Part shown: positions 5,152-25,489 of the stretch, in pieces | Numbering within the stretch: position 1 is the stretch's first letter | How the letters are laid out: every line of letters begins with the position of its first letter | NCBI GenBank assembly: GCA_002457605.1 | Contig: NTJT01000012.1 | Location: 1-36,583, forward strand | DNA from: Marine Group II euryarchaeote MED-G34 | GTDB lineage: Archaea; Thermoplasmatota; Poseidoniia; Poseidoniales; Thalassarchaeaceae | Direction: 5' to 3' | DNA length: 36,583 nt | Translations under genes and position numbers: made by a program | Notes under the pieces: generated by a model | Database searches by the model: none | What the model saw: the letters and a program-made list of their open reading frames with translations, nothing else | What the model was told of the DNA's origin: nothing

Positions 5152-5271
5152 GTGATAGTAGAGGAAAAAAGTAACAATCGCCTTACTGGGCGGCTGTGTA
5201 AGGTAATACGACCATTGAGAATGATGAAATAGAGCGCGACGTTGACGTTAATCGAAAGAGGAGGTGTAACC

Positions 5272-7269
5272 TTGTCCAAACAGTGGCCCCCGGCACAGAT
5301 AGCGCTGACCCCTGGTAAGAGAGTGCTCTTCCTCACCAAGGATCTCGAACTGATACGCAGGCAGCTCTACGAGGGCCTCGATTTACGCATGGTGGATCTC
5401 AAGGTCGGTGATTTGCTCGATGATATCAACACCGACGTCATGACTCCGGCTTGGGTCTGTTTCGACCACGATCCGGCAGTCATAGCCGAGAATGCCTACG
5501 CCGGCCTAGTTCACGAGGGGAGGCGCGTGTTCGAACCTCGTGCATTGTTAGACGGTGGCTTTGAAGCCATAGTATCTGGACATCGTAAGGGTACTGGGTC
5601 AAGTCGCGAGACTGCTGCTCAGTGTGAGCGTTGGTCGGGAATTAGGATTGTTATCGCGGCGTCCTTCGCACCGATTCACGAGCGGAACAACATCAACCTT
5701 GGGCAATTGATGGGTGACTACGGGATGTTGGAGAGGCTGCAATCTGGTGAAAGTATCTCATTGAATGAGTTCACCGCTGATTACGACCCGGTGACCAGAT
5801 TGATTATTGAAAATGGTGGTATTCTGCCGTTCGCGAAGATTCTCAAAGAAGGGGATATCAGTCTCCCTGAGTTGAAGACCGAACCGCGACCGATGACTAT
5901 GGTCGAGAAGATGATTGCGAACAAGCTGCTGGGTCAGAATGGCACGGCGCGCTATGTCAAGCCTGGTGATGCTGTGCTCTCACAGGTCGATGGTGGCTAC
6001 TCGCATGAGTTCACAACAGCACAGGTCCACGAATTCCTCAAGCAGGAATATGGCAACGATTACTCGCTTCCCAACCCATCAAAGTACGCAGTCTTCGAGG
6101 ACCATTTGCTGTACGCCACCGGGGTGCCGAGATTTGGTCGCTTCACAGAGAAGATTCAGACTCTGAGAGACATGCAGAACGTGTTCCAGCAGCACACCGG
6201 AGTGCGTGACTATTCTGCTGAGGATGGTGTCAGCCCTGGTATCTGCCATCAAGTCGCAAGAGAGGAATTCATCGATGTTGGAGATTTCATTCAAGCGACG
6301 GATTCACACACCTGTATGGGAGGTGCCACGAACGCACTGGCCTACGGTGTCGGCTCTACCGAGTACGCCAACCTCGTGCACAATCAATTTGCCTTCGTCC
6401 AAGTCCCAGAAAGCATACGATTCGAGTTGGTAGGTAACCTAGACCCTGGGTGCACAGCCAAGGATGTCATACTCCATATCCTTTGGAAGTATGCCGCTGA
6501 GTCCGAGACACTTGACCGTAGCATGGAATTCGGTGGTCCCGGACTTGCCGGTTTGTCGATGGACGAGAGGGCTACTCTATGCAACATGGCTACTGAATGT
6601 AGTGCTAAGACTGGGATATGTGAACCAGACAGTATCACTGTAGATTGGTTGATGAATCGTAGATTAGGACTGAGTGAGGCAGAGGTGCGCAGCGCCTTCG
6701 TACTACCGGATGAGGGGGCGGAGTATCACGGAGGAGTACATACCATCGACTTGACACAGATTCGTCCGATGGTCGCACATCCTGGCAAGCCCGACGAGGG
6801 AATTCCCTCCGATCCTACAAATGGTGCTTACATAGACGAAATTGGCGAGGTGAGGATAGATATCGCCTATGCGGGTTCGTGCACTGCTGGCAAGGATGAT
6901 GATTTCGCCTACTACGCGCAAGTCACCGAAGCGGCTCTTGAAGCAGGTCTGGCAATTCCCGAAGATGTCGACTGTTACATCCAGTTCGGCTCAAAGACGG
7001 TGAAGAGTTTGTCCGAGAAGAACGGCTGGAGCGAGATGTTCGAACGCGCTGGTGTCAAGCTAATTGACCCCGGATGTGGTGCCTGTATAGGAGCAGGTCC
7101 TGGTATTAGCGATGATGCGGAGCAGGTTACAATCTCTGCGATTAATCGTAATTATCAGGGTCGCTCCGGACCAGGTAAGTTGTATCTAGCAAGCCCCCTG
7201 ACTGTGATGGCCAGCGCCTTTGTCGGGAAGATTACGGCGTGGCATCCAGATATCTTTGCACAGGGTTAA
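5272..7269 (+). CDS. Aconitase/3-isopropylmalate dehydratase-family hydro-lyase, with the small swivel (LeuD-like) domain N-terminal to the Fe-S catalytic (LeuC-like) domain
   Basis: N-terminal SGHRKGTGSSRETAAQCERWSGIRIVIAASFAPIHERNNINLGQL (swivel); C-terminal TDSHTCMGGATNALAYGVGSTE and DPGCGACIGAGPG (Fe-S cysteines). Likely TTG start at 5272, preceded by SD gaggaggtg; the ORF track gives TTG at 5242. Confidence 0.85.
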   Translation: MSKQWPPAQIALTPGKRVLFLTKDLELIRRQLYEGLDLRMVDLKVGDLLDDINTDVMTPAWVCFDHDPAVIAENAYAGLVHEGRRVFEPRALLDGGFEAIVSGHRKGTGSSRETAAQCERWSGIRIVIAASFAPIHERNNINLGQLMGDYGMLERLQSGESISLNEFTADYDPVTRLIIENGGILPFAKILKEGDISLPELKTEPRPMTMVEKMIANKLLGQNGTARYVKPGDAVLSQVDGGYSHEFTTAQVHEFLKQEYGNDYSLPNPSKYAVFEDHLLYATGVPRFGRFTEKIQTLRDMQNVFQQHTGVRDYSAEDGVSPGICHQVAREEFIDVGDFIQATDSHTCMGGATNALAYGVGSTEYANLVHNQFAFVQVPESIRFELVGNLDPGCTAKDVILHILWKYAAESETLDRSMEFGGPGLAGLSMDERATLCNMATECSAKTGICEPDSITVDWLMNRRLGLSEAEVRSAFVLPDEGAEYHGGVHTIDLTQIRPMVAHPGKPDEGIPSDPTNGAYIDEIGEVRIDIAYAGSCTAGKDDDFAYYAQVTEAALEAGLAIPEDVDCYIQFGSKTVKSLSEKNGWSEMFERAGVKLIDPGCGACIGAGPGISDDAEQVTISAINRNYQGRSGPGKLYLASPLTVMASAFVGKITAWHPDIFAQG

Positions 7270-12427: not shown

Positions 12428-15400
12428 TCAGAAGACCATGTCCTCATCATCAAGGTTAGAAATCATGCTGGACTTCTCGGCGTAGCGGATTTTTGCCTCC
12501 TCCCTGCGTCCCCACATAACCACTGCGACCACTCCTACTAGAGCGAATGTCGCACCGAGGATTATTGTCGGCACTGTGTATTGGGCAATGACTTCGATTC
12601 CGACATCGAGAATACCTAAGTTCGAACCCATCTTCTGTGAGACCGCTCGGATATTGTTGTTCTCATCGGTCTCGACAATTATATTGTCTGGATCTAAGAC
12701 GACAACGACGTTGTGGCTTCCAGCCTCAACCATATACAGTAAAGCGATTGTGGGTGGATCCTCGCCGGAACATGAGCTAGAAGGGTCGTCACAGGGCATT
12801 ATCGCCTCGACTATTTGCCGGTAAACAATGTTCTCCTCGTCGCACCCATTCTTCTTAATGTCAGATTCAGTCTGGTCTACGCACAGGATGATGTTAACGT
12901 CGGTGGCATGGGAGTTGCCCTTGTTGAGGACTTGTACATTGACAGAGAGCATTTCCCCGACATCTCCTGTGTAGACCGCAGAGAAGACATCGAGGATGAA
13001 GAGGTCTGGTGCTCTGAGTCTTAGTTCGACGACTTGTTCGTTGGTGTCGCAGTTGGGTCGGTAGTTATCTGGTAAACCGTCTCCATTCGCGTCGAGAGTG
13101 CAAGAATCATCCCACACCGGAGTCTCATCGTGGTCGCCGCCCGCTTCCGAGGAGCCGAATTCCGATACGACCTTGATTCCAATCTCTCGGTCGTTTAGTG
13201 AAGCGGCTGGGTCAATCTGGATGATTACGACAATCTGCAGAGTCGAGTAGGCCTCCATCACTGGCATGGTGATTGCATTGGTTTGGGCGGATAGGTAACA
13301 GCCCTCAGCAGGTGGGTCTTCACCCAGAGTTTGTCCCACACATGGTCTCTCAATCGGATATTCGGTGTCGAAGTCCTCGAGCAATGCATAGCTAATCTCC
13401 CAATTACCCAGCAGGGGCCCCAACGTAGGGGACGTCTGCCATGAATACCGGTCATCGCTGTCATAGAGGGTGTGGTTGTGGATTGTCGGCTGATCGTTCA
13501 CATTGCCGTGGTTGGTGATGTTCATGATGAATCGGACAATCCTACCAGGGGCTGTGGATTTGATTCGGCTCTCAACCATCGGGTCGACCTCTATGCGCAT
13601 ATCATGGAACTCAACAATCTCAATCTGTAGCTCAATGACATCCCTCAGTCTGGTTCCCTCGTAGGACTCCTCGCTTAGCACGTGTAGGATTACGGTGTAT
13701 TGGCCGGCGTGGGTTCTCTCGGGCACGTTGAGAAGGATAGGTACGGTCTGCGACTCGTCACGATCTAACTCAGAAAATAGGATTCGAGGAATTTCGATGT
13801 CCCAGACGTGCGATGCACCGAATGTGTCCTCAATCGAGTTCACTGTTATGTCGTATCTATCAGCACCGTTTCCTTTGTTGGAGACTGTGGTATCCAACTG
13901 GAACAACTGTCCTGGATGCATTGATAGAATAGTTTCAGGTACGCTACCTTCCAAGTCATATTCTTGAATGACGTTTGTCAGAAGGACCACGGAATCTCTG
14001 ACACGCTGTGCTCCCTCCAGATGTGCCTTGACGGTGACAGAGTCACCTAGTCCGGCAGTAGCGTTGTATGGTGCACACATGATGGCAGTGACGGTGTAGG
14101 GGGTGTCAATAATCGACCAGTAACGCGGAGCGTTATCTGAGATTCCATTCCCTCCAGGGGCTTCAGAGAAATCCAAATCCACCGTCCAGTGATCGAACCT
14201 CCATGTCTGCTCAGAAATCTCAGGAGGTCTCTGCTCGGGACCGCCTGGAGTCGTAAATATCAGGTGACCGGGTGTGAAGTGCTTGGTGACCTCAATATCG
14301 AACTCAGAGCATTCGCCGGGCAGGACGTACTGTGTCGTGTCTCCAAGATTGAAGACAATGTTACCCGTGCTCTTGATTGAGACGTTAATCCAGAGTTCAA
14401 GAACATCGAAGGTACCTTGATCGATGGAGAGCACTGGCTCACCGGTGGACCAACCCTTCAGGTAGATCACAAAGGTCCCGGGGTCCTGTGATGTTGGGAC
14501 GCTGACCTGTAGATTCCTAGTCACTGACTGCCCAGGGTCTAATGATAGCGCCGTTGGGAATGTTAGACCCCAGCCGAACGGCAGGGCCCATTCGACCTGT
14601 CCCTCTAAGGTGGATGGATCGTAAAACGCGAACGTATCGTATACGTTGCCCGTATTAGTAACCGTTATCGAGAAGAATGCCGACTCACCCTGTTCAACGT
14701 CTACCTGGAAGTGACTGGTGTCCAAGTTAATCCCGTGGACAACATCCATCAACGTCAAAGTAATTCTGTCGTCCCTGATAGCCGGGTCTTTGTAGGATAC
14801 TGCAGTCACGGTAATCGAGGCCAATTCGTCTGCATGGGCTTGGTATATCGAAGGGGCGCGGACGCGCATGTACATCGAAACCACATCGCCACCACGCAGG
14901 AATACCGGGGTCGAGTCGAATATTGGTGTGTGATTAGTGGTGAAGAACAGTGTGGCTGTCCAGTTGTTTGGGACGCCTTCCATAGTCACGGTGAAGGTGT
15001 CGGCCACGAGTTCAGCGGGCCCAGGTGTGGGATTCGAGATTGTCATGTTGTAGGTGGTCTGCTCGCCAGGCTCAATGGTGTGGTAGTAGGTCTCAGTCTC
15101 TGTGAGTGCGACCTCGACTAGTCCAGTCAGGACGTGGACGTAGCACAGTGTGTAGGAACCGCCATTGCTGACATCGCTGCACTTGTTAGTGTCGGACCAA
15201 GCGATATGGGCACCACTCCCGAGATCATTTGCAAATGCTGGTGGTTGGCCCAAATCGGGGACCGCAGGTGAGTTCGGACCGAGTTTGTCGGACTGCCACT
15301 CAGTAATTGGGATTACTTCCCACGGGTCGAGAATCCCTGCGGCGAGCGAATTGAGAGGGAAGCCCTCGGGATAGTCGTCGTTGGTGTGATTCAGTCTAGT

Positions 15401-17539
15401 GTAAACCACGGTCTCTCCTTGGGTTCCGTTGTAGTTGTCCACCCATGACAGGTGCACGTTATCGAAAGAATCGGTGAGGATGGCTGGCATGTGTGAATTA
15501 GCGCCGAAGGGCCGATCGGTAGGAATTCCTTCGATGCCTTCGACTTCTGAGACAGCTGAGTCGACAATCTGCTTGATTCCGTAAGTAGGTAACCCGTCAG
15601 GAGCTCCGTCCCACTCGCCCGCTCCTCTGAGTCGGAGTCTGGTGTAGTAAATCTCGTAGTTGACATCGATGTCGAATCCATAAGCGCGACCATCCATCCA
15701 AGCTAGATGGGTGTTACCAGAGGTGTCTACAGAGATTGCAGGATGTAGGCTGTATGCATCGTTGAGTGTGATTCTGGTGTCGTTGACCACTACGAGATTA
15801 CCGTATCCTAGGCCGTCAATAGAGGGTCCGAGATCCTCGATGTACCTGTCGGCCGTGGTGTCGATAAAAGTCCCTGAATCTCCCTTCTGCCAGGTTGGAG
15901 GAGGATTCTCCAACAGCGAAAGAGGGTCAAGTATGGACATGTAGATTTCACGTGAATTGTTTGTGGATAGGTAGACCATGGCCTCAACCATTAGTTGTAA
16001 TTCAGCCGAGTTCGCGGAAGTAGTCGGGAAACTGTACATCTGACCCTCCGCATCGGTCAGGCGGGTGTTTGTACCCGGGCAGGTTCTTGTGTTCAGACTG
16101 ACGAATCCGTTGGGGCACTGGGCGAGGTCCATCATGTGAGATCCGACGCTGCTGGAGCCGGAGCCGAACCCAGCTGCAAGCAAGGGGACCGGGATGATTC
16201 CTGCAATAACACAGGCGTCGTGGGCCTCATTGATACTCTGAGTATCATCAGACTGTTGAGCGGGGTCCCCCCCATAGGGGCCCTCGTCTGAAATTGGGAT
16301 GATAATCTTGGTCGCGTTGGGGTTCCAGTGGTGGTCCAACTGAGTTGGTGGATTACCGGGGACGTTGCCGGCAGCATCTCGCCAAGACAGGCAAGCCCAA
16401 GTGGAGCCGGGGCCCCAAAATTCACTGTAGTATCCTCCGTCTTGCGGCAAGTTGACTGCGCCGTTGTTGTAAACAACCTCGGTGAGTTCTCTGATGCCAC
16501 CTGAGTCATCTCCTGGATTTATGCCTAGAGGGGTGGCTCGAGGACCTTGGCTTCCTGAGCCACCGGTCTGGTATGCAGCGGCGCAATTGCCGCTGGTAGC
16601 CGCGCTCGGCCAGTTGCCGCTGAGAGCATATAGGGTCTCGTAGACCGTCATGTTGGCTCGCAAGAGCATTGGCTTTAGTCCCTCGAAGTAGCCGCCGCTG
16701 GCGAAATAGCCGCCATAGAAGACCACACACATGTCAGCCCACTCGGTGTTCATCGAGCCGGAGGTGTCTATCGGGGCAACCATCTCAACTTTGCCGCCAC
16801 GGGTGTCATCCCATACAATCTGAACGAAGTCATCGGCATCGACAGCGACATCGGGGTGCCCTTTGTGACCGATGATTGGAGTGAGGAGGGTCTCGCCCAC
16901 TGCGACTATAGCCTCACGGGACTGTAGGTCGGGTTCAATCATGGAGTAGTAAATCTGGGGTTGTTGGTAGAACTTGTCAAGCGGCTCAAACGAGTCTTCC
17001 CAGACAATGTGGGCGTTGTTCTCAGAATCGGTATCAATGGCTGGCCAGTCGCGGTTCTGTGTGTGAACCGAAACCTCGAAGTCATCGATGATCGAAATCA
17101 CGTTGTCGATAGCTGAGTCGCCACTCTGATCATCCTGAGATGGATCAAGCATGGTGTAAAAGATAGTCCACTGAGCGGCTTTATCGGTCCAGGTGATATG
17201 CACGTTGTCATCACTATCAACACTAACATCAGGGTGCCAAGCCCGATGTGCACCGGGGTTAGATATCTGGGTCTCGGAAATCAGCACATCGCCTCTTGGG
17301 TTGTGCATTTGATACCACAAGTGCTGGGTGTTGCGACTCCAGACGAAGTGTACGTTGCCCATCGAGTCGGCATCGGTAGCCACCATCTTATCGTTAGCTG
17401 AGCCCCCGTTGACAATCTGAATCGCATCAGTCAGGACGACTTCACTAGCTTCAGCCTGCGGTATTTCGATTGCCGCGAAAGTGCTCATAACCATCAGAAG
17501 AACCATTGTTATGCTGTTTCTCATTTTTGCAGTTTCCAT
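12428..17539 (-). CDS. Giant secreted/surface-anchored protein: WxD propeller-like repeats, inserted vWA-like domain, NEW3/CARDB-like beta-sandwich repeats, C-terminal TM anchor
   Basis: 1703 aa. N-terminal signal peptide (RNSITMVLLMVMSTFAAIEIPQAEA); repeats NVHFVWSRN, NVHITWTDK, NAHIVWEDS, FVQIVWDDT, NTHLAWMDG, NVHLSWVDN, GAHIAWSDT; MIDAS-like DTSGS; C-terminal VPTIILGATFALVGVVAVVMWGRREE. Confidence 0.85.
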   Translation of the reverse strand: METAKMRNSITMVLLMVMSTFAAIEIPQAEASEVVLTDAIQIVNGGSANDKMVATDADSMGNVHFVWSRNTQHLWYQMHNPRGDVLISETQISNPGAHRAWHPDVSVDSDDNVHITWTDKAAQWTIFYTMLDPSQDDQSGDSAIDNVISIIDDFEVSVHTQNRDWPAIDTDSENNAHIVWEDSFEPLDKFYQQPQIYYSMIEPDLQSREAIVAVGETLLTPIIGHKGHPDVAVDADDFVQIVWDDTRGGKVEMVAPIDTSGSMNTEWADMCVVFYGGYFASGGYFEGLKPMLLRANMTVYETLYALSGNWPSAATSGNCAAAYQTGGSGSQGPRATPLGINPGDDSGGIRELTEVVYNNGAVNLPQDGGYYSEFWGPGSTWACLSWRDAAGNVPGNPPTQLDHHWNPNATKIIIPISDEGPYGGDPAQQSDDTQSINEAHDACVIAGIIPVPLLAAGFGSGSSSVGSHMMDLAQCPNGFVSLNTRTCPGTNTRLTDAEGQMYSFPTTSANSAELQLMVEAMVYLSTNNSREIYMSILDPLSLLENPPPTWQKGDSGTFIDTTADRYIEDLGPSIDGLGYGNLVVVNDTRITLNDAYSLHPAISVDTSGNTHLAWMDGRAYGFDIDVNYEIYYTRLRLRGAGEWDGAPDGLPTYGIKQIVDSAVSEVEGIEGIPTDRPFGANSHMPAILTDSFDNVHLSWVDNYNGTQGETVVYTRLNHTNDDYPEGFPLNSLAAGILDPWEVIPITEWQSDKLGPNSPAVPDLGQPPAFANDLGSGAHIAWSDTNKCSDVSNGGSYTLCYVHVLTGLVEVALTETETYYHTIEPGEQTTYNMTISNPTPGPAELVADTFTVTMEGVPNNWTATLFFTTNHTPIFDSTPVFLRGGDVVSMYMRVRAPSIYQAHADELASITVTAVSYKDPAIRDDRITLTLMDVVHGINLDTSHFQVDVEQGESAFFSITVTNTGNVYDTFAFYDPSTLEGQVEWALPFGWGLTFPTALSLDPGQSVTRNLQVSVPTSQDPGTFVIYLKGWSTGEPVLSIDQGTFDVLELWINVSIKSTGNIVFNLGDTTQYVLPGECSEFDIEVTKHFTPGHLIFTTPGGPEQRPPEISEQTWRFDHWTVDLDFSEAPGGNGISDNAPRYWSIIDTPYTVTAIMCAPYNATAGLGDSVTVKAHLEGAQRVRDSVVLLTNVIQEYDLEGSVPETILSMHPGQLFQLDTTVSNKGNGADRYDITVNSIEDTFGASHVWDIEIPRILFSELDRDESQTVPILLNVPERTHAGQYTVILHVLSEESYEGTRLRDVIELQIEIVEFHDMRIEVDPMVESRIKSTAPGRIVRFIMNITNHGNVNDQPTIHNHTLYDSDDRYSWQTSPTLGPLLGNWEISYALLEDFDTEYPIERPCVGQTLGEDPPAEGCYLSAQTNAITMPVMEAYSTLQIVVIIQIDPAASLNDREIGIKVVSEFGSSEAGGDHDETPVWDDSCTLDANGDGLPDNYRPNCDTNEQVVELRLRAPDLFILDVFSAVYTGDVGEMLSVNVQVLNKGNSHATDVNIILCVDQTESDIKKNGCDEENIVYRQIVEAIMPCDDPSSSCSGEDPPTIALLYMVEAGSHNVVVVLDPDNIIVETDENNNIRAVSQKMGSNLGILDVGIEVIAQYTVPTIILGATFALVGVVAVVMWGRREEAKIRYAEKSSMISNLDDEDMVF

Positions 17540-18307: not shown

Positions 18308-19789
18308 CTATTTGAGAACGCCGAGTCGGGGAATCAGTTGGCCTACAAGTTCCTCCAAGCGACCACCGGTTGCCGAGGAAGCTAGTCTCCTTCTTGTTCG
18401 AGAGTCGTTGAAATCATTCAACATATCATAACCCCAAAGAAAAACTAGGTTCGACATATGGATGATGGGGAGGGATACTGCGAGATAAATTGGGAGTAGG
18501 AGGGTAGCGCCGAAGAAAGAGTAGAGGAACGTGAGGGAGATTAGTGGCCAAAAGAACAGAGGAGAGAAGAGTGCCCCAATCATATGGTGTGTAGTCCTAG
18601 AGTCAATTCCCTCGTCCGTGTGGTCACCCGCATACCATCCGACGAATGCCTGCAGGCCGGTCGTCGGGATGGTGATGGGGGCGGAGAGAAGCATGGCCAG
18701 AACCCCCAATGCCCCTCTTTCCAGTCTTGATTCGGTCTTGATTCGTCCCCTCACATCCAACGTACGGGCGTCTAGGCCCACAGAGTGTAGTATGTCTGCG
18801 GCCTCCTTGGCATCTTCGACAAGAGTATCGTTATTCTCGTTCAGAATGAGTTGTTCTCTGATATCACGGGCTGCTAATACCTCCTGCTTCAGTGAGCTAA
18901 GAGGAGAGGCGGATGAATTCGCCCTCAGGTGGCCCAGTAGGTGCCACGCCCTGTATGTCTCCCAATCTGGTGCATTAGGGGTGATGTAGGTCAGACTTTC
19001 GTACAATTCGTCACGGAGAGGAAGGACTTGTTCTGCGGGCGGCTCAAGCCACTCACCCCCAGCGAGGCTTGAGTGGTGTTGGGGGTCTTCGATCAGTGGT
19101 ATGGTGATTGGTTCACCAAACTCTACGAAGACGTCGGTGCGGAACCAGAAGTGGCATCTAAAATGTAGACCTACTGGTTGAATCACAGGTTGAGGTAATT
19201 CTCTCGCATGCGCGATGCTGGCAGCACTGAGGGCGAACCGGAGAGCACCGGTCCTGATAGCATGCATCTTGGTGTCTTGGTGTGATTTACCTTCGGGCAT
19301 CACAATCGCCGCGTGTCCTGAGGCGATGCAGTTAGCCATAGTTAGCATACTCCTCTTGTTGATCTTCTTTCCGAACTCAGGGTCACTAACTCCTCTCTCC
19401 AGTTCGGCTCTCCTGATTACTGGCTGCGAGCCGATTCGGCGCGTAATCCATCCTATCACAGGCATGGTCATGAGGTCGTGCCTACCGATGGCGATGATAC
19501 GCCTATCCTGGGATTGCATGATTGCCAGAGGGTCGATGAGGCCGTTGATGTGTGTGGAAGCATACACAGAGCCGCCCTCGACCGCAGGCGGGCTGTCCAT
19601 CTCCGAGTTTCTGATGATGTAAGACCAGGCTATGTCAACGGCCCGACGGATGACCTTCCAGAAAGTTCGGTTTCCGGGGTGTTTGCCGGTGTGATCCCAA
19701 GGCAGATTCTCAAGTTTCCTGACATTGATCCTAGTAGCGCTGCTTGACAGGCTAGGGAGCTCGTCGGGTGCATTCTCGGAATCAGCCAT
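18308..19789 (-). CDS. PlsC-type (LPLAT) glycerol-3-phosphate/1-acylglycerol-3-phosphate acyltransferase-like membrane protein
   Basis: YASTHINGLIDPLAI (acyltransferase block I, GPAT-like), IGSQPVIRRAE, AAIVMPEGKSHQDTKMHAIRTGALRFAL (PEG block III), QPVGLHF; C-terminal hydrophobic segments. Confidence 0.8.
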   Translation of the reverse strand: MADSENAPDELPSLSSSATRINVRKLENLPWDHTGKHPGNRTFWKVIRRAVDIAWSYIIRNSEMDSPPAVEGGSVYASTHINGLIDPLAIMQSQDRRIIAIGRHDLMTMPVIGWITRRIGSQPVIRRAELERGVSDPEFGKKINKRSMLTMANCIASGHAAIVMPEGKSHQDTKMHAIRTGALRFALSAASIAHARELPQPVIQPVGLHFRCHFWFRTDVFVEFGEPITIPLIEDPQHHSSLAGGEWLEPPAEQVLPLRDELYESLTYITPNAPDWETYRAWHLLGHLRANSSASPLSSLKQEVLAARDIREQLILNENNDTLVEDAKEAADILHSVGLDARTLDVRGRIKTESRLERGALGVLAMLLSAPITIPTTGLQAFVGWYAGDHTDEGIDSRTTHHMIGALFSPLFFWPLISLTFLYSFFGATLLLPIYLAVSLPIIHMSNLVFLWGYDMLNDFNDSRTRRRLASSATGGRLEELVGQLIPRLGVLK

Positions 19790-19827: not shown

Positions 19828-20253
19828 TCAGTTCAGATGGCTACGAATGCGCTTGGCTAGCATTGCACCCTCATCGGGATCGAGTTGTGTGGTAGCGAAT
19901 GGCCAGGTCAAGCCGCTGCCATCATCGTGTTTGGGGATGATGTGAAAATGAACGTGGAAGACTGATTGAAATGCGGCCTCGCCATTATTCTGTAGGACAT
20001 TGAAATCGGTAGCCCCCGAAGCCGCAAGGACGGCTCTGGAAATCTTTGGAAGAACTCTTCCGACAGCAGCAGAGGCCTCTTCCGATAGTCCGTCCAGTGT
20101 AGTGCTCTGCTCCTTCGGGACAACTAGGGTGTGCCCTATGCTGGCTGGATTAATGTCAAGGAAAGCGAATACGTCCTCATCCTCGTACACCTTATGACAG
20201 GGAATATCTCCTTGAATAATGAGAGTGAAAATGCTCGGATCGGAATCGCTCAT
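19828..20253 (-). CDS. HIT-family (histidine triad) nucleotide hydrolase
   Basis: IIQGDIPCHKVYEDEDVFAFLDINPASIGHTLVVPKE ... HVHFHIIPKHDD: HxHxH triad. Confidence 0.9.
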   Translation of the reverse strand: MSDSDPSIFTLIIQGDIPCHKVYEDEDVFAFLDINPASIGHTLVVPKEQSTTLDGLSEEASAAVGRVLPKISRAVLAASGATDFNVLQNNGEAAFQSVFHVHFHIIPKHDDGSGLTWPFATTQLDPDEGAMLAKRIRSHLN

Positions 20254-20254
20254 G

Positions 20255-21691
20255 CTATTCCTCTGAGCTGATTATTGCCTCAGCCAAAGCAATCATGCCC
20301 TCGAGATAAATTGCGGTGACCAATTCGGTGTTCATCACCATGGAATGGTCTGTGACTCTGATTCCAGTATCTCGCAATCCAGCGAGGCTGGTTGCGGCTG
20401 CTTCGAGAGTTTTTTCGTCGCGACTACCGTTGAGATTTTCCATGATTGATGACATGGTGGTTGAGACTCGTCCCACTGACTCGCCGGTGGTTCCCATCAG
20501 GGATGTGACTCTATCTCGTTCGGACTGAATCGCCTCTTCCACCAGAGAGGAGGCGGCGAATGGTGTATCCGAGACCCAGTCTCCAGCGTGTTCTCCAGCA
20601 CTGTTTCCACTCACTAGGTCCTCGAGCAACTGGTTCCCCGGCAGCATGCCAGATCCATGCATTCCAGTGTTGGCTGATCGCCCGGCCGCGTAAAGACCTG
20701 TGAACCACATATTACCATCTTCGAAGGTTACTCTGCCACTCTCATCCACAGGAGCGCCTCCTGTAGTTGCGGCGACGCTTGACATCAGAGGAATGACTTC
20801 AGTGGTAACGTCCAAGCCTGCCCTCTCTCTCACCCTTCTTGTGGTCTGAGCGAACCAGGGAGATGCTGTAGCATCGAGTGAGCGTAGGTCGAGGACGCAG
20901 CTTTCTCCGTTGAGGATTGTCTCGGGTTCGACGTCCTCTCCACTCTCCTTTCGCAGTCTACCTCCAGCACCCAGCAAATCAAGGGGAAGGTGCATGTCAG
21001 TGCCGCGGATTGTGAGTGGGTGCCGAGGAGAATTAGCCATACCGGACAGGCCTACGCCTGCAGAAATAGCAAGAGCGGATCCGATACCCGCGCCATTCGA
21101 AGGAGAGGACCATATTCCTTGGTGCCCTTCTGTGGCCAGAATGACAGCTTTGGATTGTATCGAAGATATCCCTCCAGTCAATAGATCCAGCACTACAACG
21201 CCACGAACCTGTTGATTGTCCATCACCAGAGAAAGTGGGACTAGGTCCGAGCGGCGAGGGATATTCCTCTTGATGGTCTGCTCCTCAAGAATACGAGTCA
21301 CCTCTCTGGCCGTGCTGTCCCCGCAACCTGTCAGACGGGCCTTGCTGTGGCCTGGTGCCTCAGAGGTGTGGGGCAGCCCTCCTTCTCTGCGGCGCAGAAC
21401 CAATCCCCACCTCTCAAGTTCAGCAATAACTGAGGTTGCCTCACCACAGAATCGGGCTGCTGCGACTTTGTTGGTCGACTCGCCGCCAGCTGTAACCGTA
21501 TCGTTGCGATGTTCGGTGGAGTCAAGCTCATCTATCGAGGCAGCCAAGCCTGACAGAGGAGCTGTGCCAGATGCTGAACCGACACCTGAGGAGTCGATTA
21601 CCAAGGGGATTGTGCCTGCGTCGGCAGAAGCGATGGCTGCTCGCAGAGCCGCTGGGCCGCTGCCGATGACGACTATGTCCCACGACTCCAT
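20255..21691 (-). CDS. FAD-dependent oxidoreductase of the succinate dehydrogenase/fumarate reductase flavoprotein superfamily (divergent)
   Basis: DIVVIGSGPAALRAAIASADAG dinucleotide-binding motif; LYAAGRSANTGMHGSGMLPGNQLLEDLVSG resembles the SdhA/FrdA C-terminal FAD-binding block. Start taken at MESWDIVV. Confidence 0.75.
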   Translation of the reverse strand: MESWDIVVIGSGPAALRAAIASADAGTIPLVIDSSGVGSASGTAPLSGLAASIDELDSTEHRNDTVTAGGESTNKVAAARFCGEATSVIAELERWGLVLRRREGGLPHTSEAPGHSKARLTGCGDSTAREVTRILEEQTIKRNIPRRSDLVPLSLVMDNQQVRGVVVLDLLTGGISSIQSKAVILATEGHQGIWSSPSNGAGIGSALAISAGVGLSGMANSPRHPLTIRGTDMHLPLDLLGAGGRLRKESGEDVEPETILNGESCVLDLRSLDATASPWFAQTTRRVRERAGLDVTTEVIPLMSSVAATTGGAPVDESGRVTFEDGNMWFTGLYAAGRSANTGMHGSGMLPGNQLLEDLVSGNSAGEHAGDWVSDTPFAASSLVEEAIQSERDRVTSLMGTTGESVGRVSTTMSSIMENLNGSRDEKTLEAAATSLAGLRDTGIRVTDHSMVMNTELVTAIYLEGMIALAEAIISSEE

Positions 21692-21761
21692 GTTCTCTCC
21701 GTTGGTCGCAATCACAATAGCGTCATGAACGTGACGCTCGGGACTCCGTCCCGCGAGGACC

Positions 21762-23213
21762 TCAATCGGCTATGGATAGGGCCAATCTTCGAACCGCCGA
21801 TGCTGCATCAGACATTCGCTGGCCTACGCTCTCCTGCTGCGCCTTTGACGACAGTGTGGTCTGCACCACAACTGAGGAGAGTGTTTCTCCGTACTCTCCT
21901 CTCAAGGTGACCTGAACTGGGTGCGAGCCTAGTTTGGAGTCCGGCCACGCAAGACCGATCCAGAGCACGGTGGCGTCATCCAACAGACGCCCCAGTGAAT
22001 CGACCTGATCCGTGGCTCTTGCTCTGTCTATGGGACGAGAAGCCCTAGCCTCGACTCTGATTGTCTGTAGAGCCGGTTCCCCCTCGGCCACCACAACATC
22101 GAGTTTGACATTGGTATTGGCTCCGGTGTTGTTGTGTAACATAACGAATAGATCAGCCTGACCTTGAGAACATCGGGGGGGCAGGTCGAGATCTAGTCTC
22201 CAAGACACCTCATTCATCGAGTGGTCGCCTCTGATAGCTGAGTCCTGTAGTCTGTCAATCAACCTGAAGAGTCCTGGTTCCCATGCTTTGGTGTGCGCCA
22301 ACAAGGTCCGCAGTGATTTAAGGTCGAACTTGTTCGATTTGTCAATCAAACTGTCGATTGCTGTCACTTTGAAAACACGCTTCGCCTCGGTCATCAGTCT
22401 AGCGTCGTTGAGCATTCCCCGCTCATTGAGATGTACAGCACGCAGAAGGTGCTCTATGGCCGAATCGGGGGTCTGATTACTCCTCACACTATCCATTAGG
22501 GAGATTTTCCAATCATCCCACGCTGCCGCAGTCTCCGGATCTAAATGAGCGACCATGAGATCTGACAACGGCCTGTTCAAAGTGCTGTCATGTAGAGTCG
22601 GGGCATGCAAGGACAGCAGGGGAAATGAATTGGAGCGCATGGGAATCGAGTCATCTAACATCAGTGAGTTGAGGAAGCACAGTGCCCCCAGAGCCACCGA
22701 AGCGCCCAGGAGCATTGACCCGAGAGTATTGCCTGTCTCGAGGTCCCTCACTACAATCAGCGCCAGCGCACCAAGTACTGCTGAGAGGAGGCGAATTCGT
22801 TCCCTCAGGGACCTTTCGCGCAAGGTATTGAGAATTCGCTCCACGCCTGGATAGGCATCCATCGACCTCTGGCTCCCATCCCTCAACTTGAGGCGGTCGC
22901 GTGCGGACATCCTCGCGAAGGTTGCTGCTAGATTGGTGGGTATAAGCAACACAGCAAGGAGAGTATATGCTGCGATGGCCGCATCGTAGGAAGCGAAATC
23001 CCACTTTACCAGTAGCAAACCAGCGCATATAGGAGCCACTAATGAGAGAGCCTGGCGAATCAAAGGGGTCTGGGCGGATCCAGAAATGCGGGTCCAGAAA
23101 CGCCTCCCGGTATCTCTAGCTGCCACTCTGCGTGAAAGAGCTCGTTGGTTTGAGTCACCGAACTTGCTTGAATCCGAATATGGTGTCGGCAGCTTCGGAA
23201 TAGGGGCCTCCAT
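21762..23213 (-). CDS. Hypothetical membrane protein
   Basis: 483 aa with hydrophobic LVAPICAGLLLVKWDF, AIAAYTLLAVLLIPTNLA, LSAVLGALALIVV, LGSMLLGASVALGALCFLNSLML, followed by a soluble C-terminal beta-rich domain. Confidence 0.7.
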   Translation of the reverse strand: MEAPIPKLPTPYSDSSKFGDSNQRALSRRVAARDTGRRFWTRISGSAQTPLIRQALSLVAPICAGLLLVKWDFASYDAAIAAYTLLAVLLIPTNLAATFARMSARDRLKLRDGSQRSMDAYPGVERILNTLRERSLRERIRLLSAVLGALALIVVRDLETGNTLGSMLLGASVALGALCFLNSLMLDDSIPMRSNSFPLLSLHAPTLHDSTLNRPLSDLMVAHLDPETAAAWDDWKISLMDSVRSNQTPDSAIEHLLRAVHLNERGMLNDARLMTEAKRVFKVTAIDSLIDKSNKFDLKSLRTLLAHTKAWEPGLFRLIDRLQDSAIRGDHSMNEVSWRLDLDLPPRCSQGQADLFVMLHNNTGANTNVKLDVVVAEGEPALQTIRVEARASRPIDRARATDQVDSLGRLLDDATVLWIGLAWPDSKLGSHPVQVTLRGEYGETLSSVVVQTTLSSKAQQESVGQRMSDAASAVRRLALSIAD

Positions 23214-23402: not shown

Positions 23403-24542
23403 TCAACCGAAAGCGAGGCCGTGCTCCTTGCCTGCTCTGGATACTTTGTGGAGGAAGTTCTCGAATGGGATTCTGGCGTGCATCGAGCGGTTGAGCTGGG
23501 TGTCACAGTTGGCCAAAGCCCCGAGCAACTGCTCACGGAGGGGGTCGGGGAGAGAGAGTCTGCGACCGACTAGAACGTCGTGGAGTTGGTGGACCACGTC
23601 GTCGGAGTCCATTCCGTGGTCATTCATCATGCTATCAATTTCGGCCAATGCCCCCGCTAGCACCTTCTTCTTACGACCGCCCCGATTTTCCCACTTCCAC
23701 TCAACCACTCTCCCTCTCAAAGCCAGTTCCAACAGGTGTCTGCCTGACTGCAGGGTGGTTGACTGAACTAGGGTGTGAACCGCCGATCGATCTTGTGCGA
23801 GGCCCCTCAGGTGTAGCATCTCCAAGGTGAACAGGGCTTTTCTGAGGTTGCCTCTTGAGATGTACGCAATGTCCTCAAGTACGCCCTCTACAGTCTCCAC
23901 GCCCTCTGATTTGGTGATGGAGTGCATGGCAGAAAGCATCGTCTCACGCTCAGTCGATGGGATTCGAATCATCTGAGTTCGAGAGCGTAACGCATCGATA
24001 ATTCTCGAGGGGGCTCTAGCCACAAGGATGAATCTAGAGGCATTTCCAACAGTCTCCATCATCCTGCGCAGGTAAGCCTGTCTGATTGAGCCGAGATGGT
24101 CGGCGTCCTCGAGAACGATGAGTCGGCTCACAGGTAGTACACCGGGGGTGATTTCGATTTCTTTACCAGCAGGAGCAATGTCGTTCGGAGAGCCAGTTGA
24201 AATCCCTCTATCAAAGGCATCTAGACTGAGTCTGCCGGCTAGAGTGTCACTCGAACCAGTACCGCCGGGTCTGAGAAAGTTCTCGAATGTGCTCATGGCG
24301 CCGCGTTGCCTAACGAGGTCGCGGGCCTGTAGAATATGTGTCGTGGAGCGCCACCCTCTTCCGAGAATCTGGCGAGCAACCAATCGCCATGCTGCCGTCT
24401 TGCCCACGCCCTCTGGGCCGGTTATCAGCAAGTGTGGCGGGTCGGTGGAGAGACTGGCTGAGATAAGTGCTTGACGTGCCTTGTTGGGTATGGCCAGCTG
24501 CTCGAATGTTCGAGGCGCGTGGGTATTCAGCCAGCCCGTCAT
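23403..24542 (-). CDS. Replication factor C small-subunit-like clamp-loader AAA+ ATPase (divergent)
   Basis: WLNTHAPRTFEQLAIPNKARQAL, Walker A GPEGVGKTAA, Walker B LIVLEDADHL, RSRTQMIRIP in place of the SRC motif, ISRGNLRKALFTLEM. Confidence 0.8.
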   Translation of the reverse strand: MTGWLNTHAPRTFEQLAIPNKARQALISASLSTDPPHLLITGPEGVGKTAAWRLVARQILGRGWRSTTHILQARDLVRQRGAMSTFENFLRPGGTGSSDTLAGRLSLDAFDRGISTGSPNDIAPAGKEIEITPGVLPVSRLIVLEDADHLGSIRQAYLRRMMETVGNASRFILVARAPSRIIDALRSRTQMIRIPSTERETMLSAMHSITKSEGVETVEGVLEDIAYISRGNLRKALFTLEMLHLRGLAQDRSAVHTLVQSTTLQSGRHLLELALRGRVVEWKWENRGGRKKKVLAGALAEIDSMMNDHGMDSDDVVHQLHDVLVGRRLSLPDPLREQLLGALANCDTQLNRSMHARIPFENFLHKVSRAGKEHGLAFG

Positions 24543-24895: not shown

Positions 24896-25489
24896 TCACC
24901 GGGCCCTGCGGGCCCGTTCGCACACCCCTACGAAGTTCTCAAAAATCCTCGCGCCGTACTCTGAGTCGTTTACTTCTGGGTGGAATTGAAGTCCGAATCT
25001 ATCTCCAGATTCGTTCTCCATACCCTGCACCGCACAGGACTCGCTGTGTGCGGTAATCACGAAGCCGGGGGGTGCCTCTGTGACCTCGTCATTATGGCTC
25101 TCCCAGACCGCCTGCTCATCTGGGGTCCCCTCGAAAAGCGCGCCACCACCATCGACGAGAGAAATAGTAGCAGCGCCAAACTCAGGTTTTGGCGCCTCGG
25201 CGGCACTGCCACCGTAGAAACCCGCCATGAACTGGTGACCTGCGCAGATTCCGAGTATGGGGATATCCATGCCAAGAAAAGCACCGCAATTGCCTAACTC
25301 GCCAGTCAGGCCAACACGTGCCGCACCGCCAGACAGGATGAGGCCGTCCACAGGGCGGAGCTCCTCGACAGGTGTATCGTTTGGAAGGATCTGGGTGTCG
25401 ACACCTAGGTAGCGCAGCATTCGCCACTCGCGGTGGGTCCACTGGCCCCCGTTGTCAATCACATCGATGACCAAGGGAATGTCGTCCAT
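24896..25489 (-). CDS. guaAA: GMP synthase glutamine amidotransferase subunit (GuaA N-type)
   Basis: DNGGQWTHREWRMLRYLGVD, LSGG, nucleophile GICAGHQ, SHNDEV, LQFHPEVNDSEYG. Confidence 0.9.
   Translation of the reverse strand: MDDIPLVIDVIDNGGQWTHREWRMLRYLGVDTQILPNDTPVEELRPVDGLILSGGAARVGLTGELGNCGAFLGMDIPILGICAGHQFMAGFYGGSAAEAPKPEFGAATISLVDGGGALFEGTPDEQAVWESHNDEVTEAPPGFVITAHSESCAVQGMENESGDRFGLQFHPEVNDSEYGARIFENFVGVCERARRAR

Follow-up and report, generated by a model that had tools for sequence, protein, structure and literature searches.

An order-wide HX5D acyltransferase of the Poseidoniales as a candidate glycerol-phosphate acyltransferase of Marine Group II archaea

The window analysed here, a 36,583-nucleotide contig (NTJT01000012.1) of the Marine Group II (MGII) euryarchaeote MED-G34, contains a gene for a 493-aa LPLAT protein, long-A (18308-19789, minus strand, ATG start codon), in which an HX5D acyltransferase domain is followed by a helical linker and a C-terminal membrane domain. 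We propose, with a probability of roughly 0.45, that long-A is a membrane-bound glycerol-phosphate acyltransferase (GPAT) that would provide the first acyl chain of a glycerolipid, with an acceptor and a donor that we infer. Judging from sequence comparisons, what appears to be new is that a known superfamily has an HX5D subgroup that is archaeal and order-wide. In the open-access literature, a scope outside which Villanueva et al. 2017 itself falls, we found no description of the HX5D family, of its operon or of a PfaA-like synthase in archaea.

Long-A belongs to the LPLAT superfamily by its Pfam match, its catalytic His/Asp pair and PEG motif, and its fold. The PF01553 (Acyltransferase, LPLAT) match spans residues 71-207 (E 2.6e-11, 43.9 bits against a cut-off of 23) and is the only one in the protein's own genome, which is 66% complete. 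It confirms the LPLAT blocks that a first-pass annotation had read in this gene, and these blocks are invariant or nearly so in 53 aligned orthologues. In motif I, the site of catalysis (HINGLID, residues 80-86, 19532-19552, this and all following positions in the gene being on the minus strand; HINGLIDP when residue 87 is included), H80 and D86 are invariant across the family, the pattern H[IL]NGL[IV]D is present in 55 of 56 sequences, the remaining one having an unread residue, and the H-x5-D spacing is fixed. Q122, P123 and R126 are invariant in motif II (QPVIR, residues 122-126, 19412-19426), while motif III (PEGKSHQD, residues 165-172, 19274-19297) and motif IV (VIQPVGLH, residues 202-209, 19163-19186, with IQPVGLH at 203-209) form conserved blocks; the distances I-II, II-III and III-IV are 35, 37 and 31. 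Among the 53 orthologues the invariant or near-invariant positions are H80, G83, L84, D86, P87, R126, P165-E166-G167, S169-H170-Q171-D172, Q204 and G207-L208-H209, and four long-A members read FPEGTSH. The catalytic domain ends in a family-specific block, DWETYRAW (residues 275-282, 18944-18967), which is invariant save for its last W, different in one member. The C-terminal membrane domain (18380-18724), also predicted in the first-pass annotation, comprises helices 356-389, 395-426 and 432-470, and the family-averaged hydrophobic peaks (356-374, 403-421 and 433-451) coincide with these three long modelled helices.

The AlphaFold2 model, built from 28 orthologues (pLDDT 86, pTM 0.84), places the LPLAT domain up to about residue 272, ahead of the helical linker and the three helices; the motif III loop is poorly modelled (residues 170-175, pLDDT <50). 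With the full-length model as query, Foldseek ranked squash GPAT first (probability 1.00, E 6.5e-3). A model of the catalytic domain only (pLDDT 83.8) gave exactly five PDB matches with E<0.001, namely squash GPAT (1k30 and 1iuq), algal GPAT (8ia1) and two chains of Thermotoga maritima PlsC (5kym), all at probability 1.00 with E-values of 2e-5 to 7e-5, and the best TM-score was 0.53, to PlsC 5kym. PatA (E 0.05) and LpxM (E 0.0065) stood far behind these GPAT and PlsC entries, and the viral structure library matched only giant-virus acyltransferases, which is uninformative. A PDB sequence search with the protein and a 28-row profile returned no LPLAT and chance matches only, so the structural argument rests on Foldseek. 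The modelled fold fixes the class as that of the glycerol-phosphate acyltransferases, within which the Foldseek matches do not separate first from second acylation. By E-value the plastid/soluble GPATs (1iuq, 1k30 and 8ia1) are the best structural matches, although plastid GPATs are soluble.

In a maximum-likelihood tree of catalytic domains, long-A, a second long Poseidoniales clade (long-B) and a Gemmatimonadota protein (L108) fall on one side of a 99/96 branch, with all HX4D enzymes on the other (short Poseidoniales PlsC, MGIII proteins, bacterial PlsC, E. coli PlsC and PlsB). This HX5D/HX4D split persists after dropping the four longest branches, and a tree forcing long-A together with the short Poseidoniales clade (S) is rejected (p-AU 0.012). 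Structure prediction and LPLAT phylogeny, which the first-pass annotation had put forward as checks, thereby yield a GPAT/PlsC fold and an HX5D branch, and its suspicion of a non-standard subgroup is borne out by that clade. Its label 'PlsC-type' is sound in so far as long-A belongs with the LPLATs of the glycerol-phosphate acyltransferase class, but is otherwise misleading, since canonical PlsC is a separate protein in these genomes and the tree sets long-A apart. With PlsC (E. coli, T. maritima 5kym and short S) long-A shares the LPLAT fold, PF01553, the catalytic His/Asp and the PEG and motif IV blocks; unlike long-A, PlsC has HX4D and FPEGTRS, is ~245-280 aa long and lacks the C-terminal membrane domain. 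We therefore reject canonical PlsC as an identification, the TIGR00530 score of 30.1 bits being well below the cut-off of 102.95 and HX5D with PEGKSH replacing HX4D with FPEGTR. E. coli PlsB also differs, with HX4D, 807 aa and a distant row in the tree, and a PlsY-type GPAT is rejected as the window protein has no PF02660 match.

The HX5D side of the tree reaches beyond archaea, its bacterial relatives being drawn from plasmid records only, with one full-length protein among them. This protein, from Gemmatirosa kalamazoonensis (Gemmatimonadota, L108:1926-3302, 459 aa), resembles long-A in its HPNSLLDP, IPVYR, FPEGISH and IVPVG motifs, its helical linker and its three C-terminal hydrophobic segments, but is only 26% identical, and with the catalytic domain removed its C-terminal homology is not significant. 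Profile comparison of long-A with long-B aligns columns 27-454 (E 1.5e-24); among long-A, long-B and Gemmatirosa the C-terminal part alone gives no significant homology, which is supported only within the whole-length comparison of long-A with long-B. A Bacteroidota LPLAT frame on a Persicobacter plasmid (L111, ~1342-1737) reads HPLMYMD (H-x5-D) and ends early, possibly through a frameshift, hinting at a wider spread of HX5D enzymes among bacteria.

The first-pass annotation had also called the H-x5-D spacing GPAT-like. The spacing is real and fixed, but the resemblance is specifically to the fungal GPAT motif set, other GPATs being HX4D: in a comparison of opisthokont enzymes only fungal GPATs have the motif I His and Asp spaced by five residues, all other GPAT/DHAPAT classes examined having HX4D (PMC4207751). 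The Gemmatimonadota protein indicates that HX5D is not limited to fungi. Fungal microsomal GPATs (fGPAT-A, which includes yeast Sct1/Gat2 and Gpt2/Gat1, and fGPAT-B) share with long-A the HX5D motif HxNx..D, xPVxR, PEGxSH and (phi)xPVG (PMC4207751, PMC7613133) as well as several membrane segments, and the yeast HX5D GPATs acylate G3P and also DHAP (PMC7613133). The consensus given for fGPAT-B is HxNx(phi)(phi)D, (phi)P(phi)xR, FPEG[T/G/I]S[H/Y] and (phi)(phi)P[V/C/T](pi), with distances of 36-40, 21-104 and 29-35 (PMC4207751). Motif I of long-A has this fungal HxNx(phi)(phi)D form in 55 of 56 sequences, and of its motif distances the first, 35, misses the fGPAT-B range by one residue while the other two fall inside theirs. 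The fit of motifs II-IV to fGPAT-B is partial, as motif II of long-A has Q for (phi) and most members replace F by M and T/G/I by K in motif III; the fungal enzymes are also larger (~84-86 kDa), and in fGPAT-A 97-132 residues separate motifs II and III as against 37 in long-A. The likeness is drawn from published motif rows, not from aligned sequences, and need not imply common descent with Sct1/Gpt2. For fGPAT-B enzymes themselves no biochemical work is known to us.

Long-A is one of three LPLAT clades in Poseidoniales. All but two of the 146 Poseidoniia genomes searched carry PF01553 (144 in all), usually in two copies in family f1 and three in f2 (f1, f2 and f3 are tool labels that probably correspond to Thalassarchaeaceae, Poseidoniaceae and MGIII). 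The short S proteins have NHxSHxDP and FPEGTRS, the canonical HX4D form of PlsC, and long-A has H[IL]NGL[IV]DP and PEGKSHQD; long-B proteins (L068-L072, L136:5811-7412), of ~533 aa with WHPSGLIDPM and FPEGTTH, occur in f2 and in some large-genome f1 genera. Within the window's genus, short S is present in 7 of 13 genomes and was not detected in G055 (97% complete) or G028 (91%), both of which have long-A, so that long-A may be the sole LPLAT in part of this genus. The MGIII-like f3 genomes (L056-L067, L082-L085) are without long-A; each has two or three PlsC-type proteins, short and HX4D, at least one type of which groups near E. coli PlsC and others near the short Poseidoniales clade.

The pathway around such an enzyme was surveyed in 40 Poseidoniales genomes per gene, 25 of them at least 90% complete, and covers the G1PDH, gpsA, plsY and fatty acid synthesis genes that the first-pass annotation had proposed searching for. 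PlsY (PF02660) is found in 0 of 40 genomes, which leaves the survey without a first-step enzyme of the PlsY type; G1PDH likewise scores above cut-off in 0 of 40, in agreement with Rinke et al., and GpsA is found in 38 of 40. GGGPS is present in 28 of 40 (18 of the 25 more complete genomes), the gaps reflecting either incomplete bins or a genuine patchy loss of the first ether-lipid step. A CarS-like CDP-archaeol synthase is present in 38 of 40 genomes, including all 25 of the more complete ones, and nearly all PF01148 matches are these same CarS proteins. Only one genus of the 15 sampled, g5, has besides CarS a strong bacterial-type CdsA-like protein (PF01148 E ~1e-50; L139 and L140, on G042:C226 and G024:C117, and G066:C50). 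With CarS universal in the more complete genomes and CdsA confined to one genus in 15, there is no obvious dedicated next enzyme for diacyl phosphatidic acid; a search for ester lipids would best start in g5, which combines the CdsA-like protein with a megasynthase and a pair of HX5D enzymes. Lipidomics of MGII-dominated water finds such lipids absent at high abundance and reports no mixed lipids (PMC6962369). In work on E. coli and B. subtilis, either enantiomer of glycerol phosphate served as substrate for PlsY and PlsC, but G3P alone for PlsB (PMC13400652), so the stereochemistry is not guessable from family alone.

Acyl chains for long-A could be supplied in many relatives by a PfaA-like synthase with its FabI-like reductase and phosphopantetheinyl transferase (PPTase). 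Matches to KS and ACP profiles lie in one giant protein, present in every f2 genome sampled as well as in f1 genera g2, g5, g6 and g8; the profiles do not find it in the window's own genus within the 40-genome sample, where acyl chains would consequently need an outside source. In G002 (L132:5070-13895, G002:C1, minus strand) this 2,941-aa protein combines KS, acyltransferase and second KS-like domains with three ACPs, a KR and a dehydratase, its best NCBIfam model is PfaA (840 bits, below the cut-off of 1,010), and it is flanked by a FabI-type enoyl-reductase and the PPTase. The locus would give Poseidoniales an operon for fatty-acid (or PUFA-like) synthesis that is complete in itself. Further synthase loci (L133:5438-13564 on G008:C39, plus strand; G004:C28, G039:C5, G043:C27 and others) encode proteins of 2,700-3,000 aa with up to four tandem ACPs. 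Of the 40 genomes, 21 have both long-B and the synthase, 5 have the synthase without long-B, none has long-B without the synthase and 14 have neither (Fisher p 5e-7 with kinship ignored).

It is the fungal GPAT motif set, the HX5D clade, the GPAT structure matches, the undetected PlsY and the presence of GpsA that lead us to a first-chain enzyme. Long-A would use acyl-CoA or acyl-ACP as the donor of a fatty acyl group and a free hydroxyl of G3P (possibly also of DHAP or G1P) as its acceptor, and the product would be the first acyl chain of a Poseidoniales glycerolipid. His80 would deprotonate the acceptor hydroxyl with support from Asp86, Arg126 of motif II and the PEGKSH of motif III would make the contacts with phosphate and backbone, and the C-terminal helices would keep the enzyme at the membrane, the site of acyl donor and product; the short PlsC, where present, would add the second chain. 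We infer the acceptor (G3P, G1P, DHAP or a lyso- or ether-lipid), the donor, the position and any use of the product in the membrane. The universal CarS, the rare CdsA and the negative lipidomics argue against a bulk diacyl pathway, and for this reason our confidence in a first-chain GPAT stays below one half.

A serious if less probable alternative is that long-A acylates a lysolipid or a mono-ether lipid such as geranylgeranyl-glycerol-phosphate, yielding a chimeric ether/ester lipid (as proposed by Villanueva 2017 according to the account in PMC6962369) or remodelling lysophospholipids, and is therefore LPAAT-like and not GPAT-like. The catalytic-domain model is equally near to PlsC (5kym) and to GPAT, the retention of GGGPS and CarS implies that ether-lipid intermediates should exist, and in G055 and G028 long-A may have to work without a second acyltransferase. 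However, most relatives already have a canonical LPAAT-type PlsC, the fungal motif set is indicative of first-step enzymes, and mixed lipids are among those unreported from MGII-rich water.

The surroundings of long-A, all on the minus strand, consist of a class-I glutamine amidotransferase (GATase, 24896-25489), an RFC small-subunit-like clamp loader (23403-24542), a 483-aa protein without a Pfam or NCBIfam match (21762-23213) that lies between RFC and the FAD protein order-wide, an SdhA/NadB-like FAD protein (20255-21715), a HIT-family protein directly upstream (19828-20253), DUF2299 (PF10061, 17654-18286) directly downstream and a 1703-aa CARDB-repeat protein (12428-17539) with N-terminal signal-like and C-terminal TM-like segments. 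The first-pass annotation put archaeal informational genes within one or two genes' reach, which is slightly off: the adjoining genes are DUF2299 and HIT, the closest informational gene, that for the RFC small subunit, is four genes upstream, and TFB and Topo VI are 8-15 kb distant. A glycerol-3-phosphate dehydrogenase (GlpA/GlpB) is rejected for the FAD protein, which matches SdhA/NadB models, under every curated NCBIfam cut-off, and thus provides no lipid link. Elsewhere in the window (5242-7269, plus strand) an aconitase-family protein of 675 aa has its swivel (Aconitase_C) match N-terminal to the catalytic core, an AcnB-like order in a shorter protein.

Long-A is an old, vertically inherited single gene of the Poseidoniales, neither chimeric nor a recent import. 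GTDB contigs contain 54 relatives that share 43-94% identity with long-A, almost all of them full-length. Their sources are independent MAGs and single-cell assemblies whose titles name Euryarchaeota, Poseidoniales, Thalassarchaeum or Marine Group II. The order GATase, RFC, 483-aa protein, FAD protein, HIT, LPLAT, DUF2299, CARDB is kept in 54 of 54 Poseidoniales loci as far as the contigs extend, and from RFC to DUF2299 also in a single-contig 2.06 Mb Poseidoniaceae genome (L135). A long-A profile finds the protein across both Poseidoniales families, kept order-wide despite genomes of 1.0-2.2 Mb, and none in sister-order (MGIII-like) or other Thermoplasmatota genomes bar one weak match (E 2.7e-5). 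The shared gene order and the confinement of profile matches to Poseidoniales indicate that long-A was present in the ancestor of the order and was inherited with its neighbours.

These fixed neighbours, of which DUF2299, HIT, the FAD protein and the CARDB protein are not lipid genes, favour a reading to which we give a rather lower, minority probability, acylation of something other than a glycerolipid. Candidate acceptors would be sugars or glycolipids (PatA-like), amino-acid lipids, alcohols, and surface proteins or glycans, with the CARDB-repeat protein as one conceivable client. CarS being kept and CdsA rare speaks against a bulk phosphatidic acid pathway and so in favour of such a substrate, and PatA and LpxM do share the LPLAT fold. 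Both rank lower in the structure lists, however, with E-values well behind those of GPAT and PlsC, long-A has the glycerol-phosphate motifs II and III in near-fungal form, and a neighbourhood that includes RFC and GATase is a poor guide to function. It is highly improbable that long-A is a catalytically dead or regulatory LPLAT-like membrane protein, as its extended motif I spacing and poorly modelled motif III loop might suggest, since the catalytic His and Asp, the motif II Arg and PEG are invariant order-wide and active fungal GPATs share the HX5D spacing (PMC7613133, PMC4207751). Even though PlsC-type enzymes are of bacterial origin (PMC6431249) and the window is a MAG contig, an assembly error or a bacterial gene contaminating an archaeal bin, the chimera raised in the first-pass annotation, is rejected by the synteny across independent assemblies and by the Poseidoniales-confined profile matches.

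Marine Group II are the most abundant archaea of the surface ocean, and fat-based (acyl) membrane lipids are not expected of archaea. The MGII lipid question is contested, with no G1PDH, no cultures and contradictory lipidomics. MGII 'PlsC homologues' (Villanueva et al. 2017, as cited by later papers), fatty-acid genes and the lack of G1PDH have already been published (PMC6962369, PMC6461757, PMC7852524), and as far as these accounts go the homologues share with long-A the same organisms and the same debate (no G1PDH, a G3P route, possible ester or mixed lipids). Earlier arguments leaned on those homologues, which were considered patchily distributed and of little likely importance; to Coleman et al., archaeal PlsC and PlsY were transfers that are unlikely to serve membrane lipid synthesis (PMC6431249). 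The key candidate is now a universal single gene with a first-step motif set, in genomes without detected PlsY. The making of acyl glycerolipids, a possibility that the first-pass annotation raised for this organism, would have to be reconciled with negative lipidomics in MGII-rich water (PMC6962369) and with the retained CDP-archaeol synthase. Our broader proposal, which we consider a tentative and rather unlikely one, is that Poseidoniales make acyl-ester glycerolipids on G3P, pure or mixed with isoprenoid ethers, by a complete route of their own through GpsA, a fungal-type HX5D GPAT replacing PlsB/PlsY, the short PlsC and, in many genera, the PfaA-like megasynthase. Long-A makes this question testable through one enzyme and, if the proposal were true, abundant archaea would have membranes that cross the lipid divide.
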